A stretch of 64,000 nt of DNA from Polyangiaceae bacterium (GTDB lineage Bacteria > Myxococcota_A > Polyangia > Polyangiales > Polyangiaceae). Below are positions 29,666 through 31,830 of this stretch, piece after piece (positions within the stretch are counted from its first letter, which is position 1; every line of letters starts with the position of its first letter). The position numbers were made by a program, and so were the translations under genes. The notes under the pieces were generated by a model. That model worked only from the letters and a program-made list of their open reading frames with translations. It was not told the DNA's origin and did not search any database. The stretch spans positions 1 to 64,000 of the forward strand of contig JANXOF010000095.1 in the NCBI GenBank assembly GCA_025353725.1, in the 5' to 3' direction.

Positions 29666-30553
29666 ATGAACTCGCCTCCAGAAGCCAACGCGAATCTTGG
29701 TTGCGAGGTCGTCACGACGAGTCAAGGGGCGCGGGCGATGCGCGATTGTGCGAGCGGTGAAGTGATGCATCCGGGAACTGGGCCAAGCGTCGAGCCCGTT
29801 GCGCTCTACGTCAACCCGTCAAGGCTTGCGAAACGGCTAATAGCTGATTTCAAGTGCAGCGACGGCTCGCGGACGGAAGGCACCGCGCTCGTCCTGCTCG
29901 ACGTCGGCCTTGGAGCCGCATCCAATGCTGTCGCCGCGTGGCGCGTCTCGGAATCCCTACCTAAATCCGTACGGCGGCTCGAAATCGTGAGCTTCGACAA
30001 TGAGCTGACGGCGCTCGAGATCGCCCTACGGCCCGAGCACGCAGCGAACTTTGATTTGACGGGCGACGCTTACACGGCTGCGCGAACGCTTTTGGAGACT
30101 GGCCATCACGAAACCGAACGGACCACCTGGCGACTCCAGCATGGAGACTTCTTACGCACCATCGTCGAAGAGCCGGAGGCATCGGCCGACATCGTATTCT
30201 GGGATTTTTACTCTTCGAAAACCCACCCAGATCTCTGGACACTAGCAGTGTTCCGCGCGCTTAGACGCGTGTGTCGGGGAGGCTCGACCGTGCATACGTA
30301 CAGCACGGCAACCTCGCTGCGGGCTGGCCTCCTGCTTGCTGGGTTTGCCGTCGGTGCTGGAGGGGCGACGGGAACAAGGCCCGAGACGACCATCGCGGCG
30401 GTGGACTTAGGTGACCTAGAAACACCGCTTGGTGCGCGCTGGCTCGCACGCTTGACGCGGTCGACATCAAAGTTTCCAAGTGACGTAAGTTCGGACGACC
30501 AGACACAAGCCGCTGCCCTAGACCGTATTCGGGCGTGCTCACAATTTCGGTAA
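29666..30553 (+). CDS. MnmC-like SAM-dependent methyltransferase (Methyltransf_30/DUF752)
   Basis: Predicted cytoplasmic tRNA wobble-uridine methyltransferase, 295 residues. The Rossmann motif I reads ALVLLDVGLGAASNAVAAW (about 73-91). The family signature ADIVFWDFYSSKTHPDLWT (about 173-191) corresponds to the DAFxPxKNPELWT block of the MnmC methyltransferase domain. The FAD oxidase half of E. coli MnmC is absent, as in stand-alone DUF752 proteins. The usual D-A-F is D-F-Y here, so substrate choice may differ. It follows tgt at 19 bases and probably shares its transcript. tRNA modification at position 34 by both neighbours supports the call. Confidence 0.78.
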   Translation: MNSPPEANANLGCEVVTTSQGARAMRDCASGEVMHPGTGPSVEPVALYVNPSRLAKRLIADFKCSDGSRTEGTALVLLDVGLGAASNAVAAWRVSESLPKSVRRLEIVSFDNELTALEIALRPEHAANFDLTGDAYTAARTLLETGHHETERTTWRLQHGDFLRTIVEEPEASADIVFWDFYSSKTHPDLWTLAVFRALRRVCRGGSTVHTYSTATSLRAGLLLAGFAVGAGGATGTRPETTIAAVDLGDLETPLGARWLARLTRSTSKFPSDVSSDDQTQAAALDRIRACSQFR

Positions 30554-30576: not shown

Positions 30577-31662
30577 TCAACGCTCCGAAAGTCTACGCTC
30601 GAGGAGGCTCTCGCCTAACGCAACAGCATCCGAAGCCGAACGGGCCGTTCCGTCTGCACCGACGTGCCGCCACAACTCTGGCGCGAGGTCAAAGGGGTAG
30701 CCTCCGACGAGGACGACGGTATGCCTTGTCTTTAGGTCGCGCCGGATAGCGCGAATGTAGTCAGCGAGCGTCGGCAGGTGCCGCACCTGGGATACGGAGA
30801 GCACGACCACCCGTGCACGACGTCGGATCATCGCCTCGACGAGCCCCTCCACCTCCATGTTACCGCCGAGAAAAAGTGTCTCCCACCCCGCCATTTCAAA
30901 GAAGTCCGCAACCATTCGAGCGCCCAACTCGTGCGGTTCGCCCCTTACGGTCGTCGCGACCATTCTGCGAGCTGGAATGCGAGCGCGATCTTGACGCGGA
31001 GGAAATACCCGTGGTTGAAGCACGTCGAGCATTTGCTGCGTAACGGCAGTGCAATAGTGCTCGTCGGCAGGACGGATACGGTTCACGAGCCAAAGGCGCC
31101 CGAGCTCACGCTGGGCGGCTTGGAAGACGTCGAGGTAGAGCGCGTCGAGAGCCATACCTCCGTCGACCGCCTCCAGGACCAAACGTCGTACGCGGCCCAC
31201 GTCGCGTGTAAAAAGGAGCTGTAGGTACTCACGTGCCAATTCTGCGTGAGGACTCGCCTTCACAAATGAGCAAGGCAGATTCGTCCGTCGAGCAGCCAGC
31301 GCCTGCTCCGCGGCGTTCAACGCGGGCTCAACCGCCGCGTAGTGCTCGTCCGAGAGACCGGACTCGAGGATGGTCCGGAGCGTGGTGATACAGAACGGGA
31401 CCTCCTGCGCCGCAGCCCCCCTCGCGACGAGGCCGACCCGCGCCCAAGACACTCCGTCGACGAACAGCCGAGGGGCGCTTACCGCAACGGCGACATACAG
31501 CTCGTCGAGACGACGTCCGACGAAGCGTTCGACGTCGCGGTTAGGCGCCTTTGGCGACATCGCGACGGCCACGCGCGACGCGACCCGTAGACGGTTCGTC
31601 CGAAGCCAGCGGGCGGCGCCTACCGCCGCCGAAGCCGCTCGTGAAGCAGGTTCTCCCACCAT
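30577..31662 (-). CDS. CarH-like B12-binding photosensory protein without DNA-binding domain
   Basis: A 361-residue cobalamin-binding protein. The helical B12-cap domain (about 135-215) contains Trp191 followed after exactly nine residues by Glu201-His202, the Wx9EH signature of the CarH/LitR light sensors. The B12-binding Rossmann domain (about 232-355) has Glu242-Pro-His244-Glu-Leu-Gly247, the (E/D)xHxxG lower-ligand motif. In CarH an N-terminal MerR helix-turn-helix would precede these domains; here the first 130 residues show no such motif and are of unknown fold. It is therefore probably a light or B12 sensor working through a partner protein. The upstream frame start is an ATG-like position at 31662; an internal Met at 35 is an alternative. 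Confidence 0.8.
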   Translation of the reverse strand: MVGEPASRAASAAVGAARWLRTNRLRVASRVAVAMSPKAPNRDVERFVGRRLDELYVAVAVSAPRLFVDGVSWARVGLVARGAAAQEVPFCITTLRTILESGLSDEHYAAVEPALNAAEQALAARRTNLPCSFVKASPHAELAREYLQLLFTRDVGRVRRLVLEAVDGGMALDALYLDVFQAAQRELGRLWLVNRIRPADEHYCTAVTQQMLDVLQPRVFPPRQDRARIPARRMVATTVRGEPHELGARMVADFFEMAGWETLFLGGNMEVEGLVEAMIRRRARVVVLSVSQVRHLPTLADYIRAIRRDLKTRHTVVLVGGYPFDLAPELWRHVGADGTARSASDAVALGESLLERRLSER

Positions 31663-31830
31663 TCGCTTCCCTCTCCAGTATACGCAGGCGCCTTTGCCCG
31701 ATAGGACACGCCAAGCTAAGCATAGCTCTTCTGTCTGCGCTCCATGGAATCGGCAGCCGATGAGATGTGAGACGAAGTAAATACCTAGCCGGTGGACGCC
31801 GAATGCCTTCGCGCTTTCTAGCGCTCAACC

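Follow-up and report, generated by a model that had tools for sequence, protein, structure and literature searches.

The gene on the reverse strand at positions 30577–31662 of contig JANXOF010000095.1 of a Polyangiaceae bacterium (assembly GCA_025353725.1; the window that we analysed is the first 64,000 nucleotides of this contig) encodes a new, divergent, and orphan member of the published photoglobin–B12 family. It had been described, from the sequence, as a light sensor like CarH that lacks the MerR domain, possibly an anti-regulator like AerR, with a carotenoid or stress regulator as its expected target. We established the fold and the family of both domains of the protein: an N-terminal globin of the phycobiliprotein type (photoglobin) is followed by a CarH-type domain for the binding of adenosylcobalamin (AdoCbl), and a 'light sensor without a DNA-binding domain' can now be replaced by a concrete family. 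We give a probability of about 0.5 to the reading that this is a stand-alone fusion of the photocobilin family, with the globin first, that would work by analogy with the photocobilin SasPcob and with CarH.

The N-terminal domain is a photoglobin

The strand and length of the reading frame match the original prediction, which had also seen no helix-turn-helix in the N-terminal 130 residues and had proposed a structure prediction of this part. The prediction confirmed the absence of such a motif and revealed a recognisable domain. Modelled alone, the N-terminal part gave six helices in a globin fold, with a predicted local distance difference test score (pLDDT) of 93.9. The top match of this model in the PDB was the globin domain of SasPcob (Z 15.1), and the rest of the top 50 were almost all phycobiliproteins. 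Because this model depends on the family alignment, it shows the fold of the family; independent evidence for the query comes from a profile of the domain made without it, to which the query scored 37.4 bits, whereas the highest score among 500 shuffles was 5.3. When the protein was compared directly with solved structures, residues 48–107 gave a weak second match to the C-terminal globin of SasPcob. The N-terminal part of a profile of the 71 family proteins also matched allophycocyanins and phycocyanins. Individually, 48 of the 71 match Pfam Phycobilisome (best E-value 1.4e-10); the query alone does not, and its membership among photoglobins therefore rests on the family profile.

Two other identities for this region were discarded. 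A sensor globin of the RsbRD or another type, our first guess, was dropped because phycobiliproteins and photocobilins fit best by fold. The MerR-type domain found at the N-terminus of CarH and LitR was rejected, since Pfam contains no helix-turn-helix match here and the modelled fold is a globin; a DNA-binding domain that had escaped notice, the finding named beforehand as fatal to the original prediction, did not appear.

A complete cobalamin-binding domain with an altered adenosyl pocket

Residues 143–347 form a complete cobalamin-binding domain of the CarH type, with a helical cap and a Rossmann-type part, and its Pfam matches are not due to chance (B12-binding, E-value 4.2e-19; B12-binding_2, E-value 4.1e-11). 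The whole-protein model has a pLDDT of 94.2. Photocobilins are the nearest solved proteins by sequence (8j2x, 8j2w, and 8j2y; E-values 1.8e-18 to 2.4e-13), and the family profile matched both domains of SasPcob and AbPcob (E-value 3.4e-42). The fold of the B12 domain gives the same answer, with Z scores of 25.8 (8j2y) and 25.6 to photocobilins, against 20–21 for CarH and 20.7 for AerR (7te2). What was taken for a CarH without MerR, or for a relative of AerR, is thus closer to SasPcob and AbPcob by sequence, profile, and fold. The claim of an AdoCbl-type light-sensor domain without a DNA-binding domain of its own stands, and for lack of the latter the protein is probably partner-dependent.

The motifs W191-x9-E201-H202 and (E/D)xHxxG, the latter as E242-P-H244-E-L-G247, occur exactly as first reported (Table 1). 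Residues W191, E201, H202, H244, G247, and G266 are retained, and 20 of the 86 positions of the B12 domain conserved in the family differ in the query. In the signature of light-responsive domains, GxxW, EH, and GxxH are present, whereas GxxxP reads GxxxE (E270). In the CtMerR structure, the proline of this motif touches the adenosyl group of the adjacent monomer (PMC11796333).

Table 1. Features of the photoglobin–B12 gene and their positions in the window
Feature	Position	Strand	Basis
Whole gene, photoglobin–cobalamin-binding-domain fusion, 361 amino acids	30577..31662	(-)	Reading frame, Pfam, family profile, model
Probable ribosome-binding site GGAGAGGG, 6 bases before ATG	31669..31676	(-)	Sequence
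Phycobiliprotein-type globin (photoglobin), residues 4–124, six helices	31291..31653	(-)	Leave-one-out profile; model; fold match
F47; Asp in family (68/70 relatives), SasPcob Asp270, key biliverdin contact	31522..31524	(-)	Alignment; role PMC10979010
W73, invariant in family, SasPcob Trp296 at bilin ring D	31444..31446	(-)	Alignment; role PMC10979010
Helical cap (B12-binding_2), residues 143–215	31018..31236	(-)	Pfam
W191 of GxxW; in relatives stacks on adenosyl ribose	31090..31092	(-)	Sequence, alignment; role PMC10979010
E201-H202 motif, adenosyl pocket and dimer interface	31057..31062	(-)	Sequence, alignment; role PMC10979010, PMC11796333
Rossmann-type B12-binding domain, residues 233–347	30622..30966	(-)	Pfam; fold Z 25.8/25.6 to photocobilins
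G241-E-P-H244-E-L-G247, loop of the lower-axial-ligand His	30922..30942	(-)	Sequence, alignment
G266-G-N-M-E270, GxxxP with Pro to Glu; Pro in 69/70 relatives	30853..30867	(-)	Alignment; Pro role PMC11796333

The bilin pocket is largely lost

We compared the globin pocket with that of SasPcob, whose published numbering equals the chain index plus 6 (checked on Trp61, Glu71/His72, and His108). Columns 47 and 73 of the family alignment correspond to Asp270 and Trp296 of SasPcob, and AbPcob has a His in column 47, in agreement with PMC10979010. The query has F47 in place of the bilin-pocket Asp; R51, E54, and G70 stand where the family conserves His, Tyr, and Tyr, and around ten residues are deleted at the bilin-pocket helix, just before this region. 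Judged from the alignment, the query has lost most of the pocket that would hold a bilin, and it is unlikely to bind biliverdin. The globin domain has probably given up this chromophore and now acts as a scaffold or as a surface for docking. The identities of the N- and C-terminal domains did not differ significantly in a test for relaxed constraint (z −1.06, rank 14 of 71), and we therefore make no claim of a faster decay of the globin alone.

A different trait of the pocket emerged in other members of the family. Among the 68 that have the bilin Asp, 22 carry a Cys three positions before it (e.g., L009, L014, L018, and L087). This CxxD Cys, within CLRD in L018 and L087, is at the exact site of the chromophore Cys of phycobiliproteins, suggesting that some photoglobins may bind bilin covalently. 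BBAG-2 proteins, in contrast, are said to lack CXRD (PMC10151467).

Relatives, neighbouring kinases, and the query's own genome

When species-representative genomes were searched, relatives turned up in Chloroflexi, Pseudomonadota, Bacteroidota, methanogens, and other groups. Most have around 355 amino acids and can be aligned to the query from about its residue 46 to the end; the 70 aligned globin-first relatives are 29–38% identical to it. Two relatives (L093 and L097) have tandem photoglobin domains, and in three loci (L099, L101, and L102) the photoglobin is in a separate reading frame adjoining the B12 protein.

Of the 78 relatives whose downstream sequence was long enough, 74 have a histidine kinase gene directly after the photoglobin–B12 gene, and the two genes usually share 4 bp (loci L009–L088; e.g., L010:6873-8087 and L014:6909-8096). 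These kinases mostly share an N-terminal region, putatively PAS-like, and a linker that contains an invariant stretch of the LNNEL..QREL type. The conserved neighbouring regulator that the original prediction had proposed to look for in relatives thus exists, but it is a kinase rather than the expected carotenoid regulator. We found no repressor among the most conserved neighbours of the relatives, in a survey that included no search aimed at CrtJ/PpsR. In 14 of 80 loci, a gene encoding an ABM domain lies directly upstream of the photoglobin–B12 gene (e.g., L009:5536-5835 and L045:5496-5825). Among solved structures, the ABM-domain proteins are closest to the heme-degrading monooxygenases HmoB, IsdI, and MhuD, and all those examined conserve an Asn, a Trp, and a His, the catalytic residues of the IsdG/HmoB-type group. 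It is possible that this monooxygenase is a dedicated source of bilin. Photoglobins are reportedly the subject of Schneider et al. 2022, which may already cover part of this neighbourhood of kinase and monooxygenase.

The query itself has neither a histidine kinase nor another regulator among its neighbours in the window, the latter as first reported. Its neighbourhood consists of tgt and of genes for an MnmC2-like methyltransferase and a myo-inositol-phosphate synthase, along with an ASCH-like reading frame. The methyltransferase gene (29666-30553, forward strand, convergent with the photoglobin–B12 gene) scores under the curated MnmC2 cut-off and lacks the oxidase half. A profile of the kinase region recovered the neighbouring kinase in two control genomes of relatives (G415 and G072) and matched nothing in the query's own genome. 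The estimated completeness of this assembly is 97.6%, which makes the absence of the kinase type likely rather than certain; the query is likely an orphan without the usual partner kinase of its family.

Another contig of the genome (C28) carries a second photoglobin–B12 gene (L117:7629-8618), at the end of an overlapping run of genes for a histidine kinase, a response regulator, a second histidine kinase, and an ABM-domain protein (L117:1294-8618; ABM gene at L117:6691-7629). The ABM gene, directly upstream, likewise encodes a monooxygenase of the IsdG/HmoB type with the conserved Asn, Trp, and His. The paralogue has retained both the bilin Asp and the Pro, and has T-H in place of E-H. We also identified two B12 proteins with helix-turn-helix domains (L006 and L007), one of them of the MerR type, and one heme oxygenase, so that biliverdin can probably be made. 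No phytochrome was found in the genome.

Proposed working and alternatives

We infer cobalamin binding, light response, oligomer switch, and partner of the query by analogy. In the dark, a head-to-tail dimer would hold AdoCbl base-off, with H244 as the lower ligand and with W191, E201, and H202 next to the adenosyl group. Green or blue light would break the Co–C bond and adenosine would depart; the helix of E201-H202 would then move and the dimer would loosen, in a change from dimer to monomer. The altered surface would act in trans on a partner protein encoded elsewhere in the genome, with the bilin-free globin as a scaffold or docking face. In most relatives, this partner is presumably the kinase encoded directly downstream. 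The query is likely to bind AdoCbl, and the chances that it responds to light are about even.

Several observations weigh against this reading. With E270, the protein lacks the Pro that reaches across the dimer to the adenosyl group, which may change AdoCbl use and dimerisation, and counts against light sensing. No partner of the query was identified. Its branch in the family tree is long (1.35, against a median of 0.36), its placement is unsupported (Shimodaira–Hasegawa-like approximate likelihood ratio test of 47 with L094), and no close orthologues for selection tests were found, either among 116 relatives or in 377 genomes from the phylum, where the gene type is sporadic. To judge by their record titles, many relatives derive from sediments or from anaerobes, settings that may receive little light, so that even at the level of the family photosensing is uncertain.

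Some of these observations would suit a former light sensor of photoglobin–B12 descent that now signals cobalamin or redox status, or that is a pseudo-receptor pairing with the operon-borne paralogue. The change to GxxxE, the replacement of the Asp, the His, and both Tyr of the bilin pocket together with the deletion, the missing kinase type, and the long branch are all consistent with it; the paralogue in its operon offers a mate, and photocobilins can make heteromeric contacts (PMC10979010). Nothing links the query to the paralogue, though, and we regard this alternative as doubtful. Its fullest version, in which pocket, proline, and kinase were all shed and the protein is now a cobalamin-status sensor or a pseudo-receptor subunit, for example with the paralogue, is unlikely. 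A photocobilin with two chromophores, sensing red light too through biliverdin in a rearranged pocket, would agree with the globin fold, the retained W73, the heme oxygenase, and the residual biliverdin binding of AbPcob, which has His for Asp (PMC10979010); the substitutions at positions 47, 51, 54, and 70 and the deletion in the pocket helix make it improbable. An AerR-like anti-regulator that directly binds a DNA-binding partner, as originally suggested, would fit a protein that shares the B12-domain fold of AerR and lacks a DNA-binding domain, but is very improbable because photocobilins fit better and share the second domain, and because the relatives adjoin kinases, not a repressor. Finally, a functionless, decaying gene would explain an orphan, divergent, and sporadic sequence, but there is little chance of this given the intact frame with its ATG start and good ribosome-binding site, the codon-position G+C (0.74/0.49/0.69, similar to neighbouring genes), the conserved core and cobalamin-ligand residues, and the confident model.

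The query belongs to the photocobilin family by descent but has neither GxxxP nor the bilin Asp, two functional features of photocobilins, and is best classed as a divergent photoglobin–B12 fusion rather than as a demonstrated photocobilin.

Comparison with known systems

SasPcob and AbPcob (8j2w, 8j2x, and 8j2y) are closest to the query by sequence and fold: they fuse the same two domain types and have the same ligand residues (W, EH, and the lower His). Their domain order is reversed, Asp270 (SasPcob) or His (AbPcob) stands where the query has Phe, and the Pro of GxxxP where it has Glu; the query has no output domain. That the B12 domain of photocobilins can lie at either terminus was already noted (PMC10979010). 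The globin-first fusions encoded beside a histidine kinase (70 relatives, around 355 amino acids) share its length and domain order and align end to end; the query differs by the lack of a downstream kinase, a type not found in its genome, and by its altered bilin pocket and GxxxP. The BBAG-2 globins of Myxococcales belong to the same larger clade as its globin and have been linked to a B12 protein and a heme oxygenase (PMC10151467), but there globin and B12 protein are separate, whereas here they are fused. CarH and LitR share the AdoCbl domain with W-x9-EH and ExHxxG; the query lacks their MerR domain, has a globin, and has changed the Pro of GxxxP. AerR and the SCHIC domain of AppA also have a cobalamin-type domain without a helix-turn-helix, but are structurally less similar (Z 20.7 and about 19) and lack the globin.

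Earlier papers have described these fusions as a family, with both orders of the domains and with the mechanism of the light response (PMC10979010, PMC11796333, and PMC10151467). The query adds that the pair of photoglobin and B12 domain can persist without the bilin site and the kinase. The neighbours found at the level of the family are a more interesting lead than the query itself: do globin-first photocobilins signal to the co-transcribed histidine kinase, and does the IsdG/HmoB-type monooxygenase supply bilin in a subset of them?
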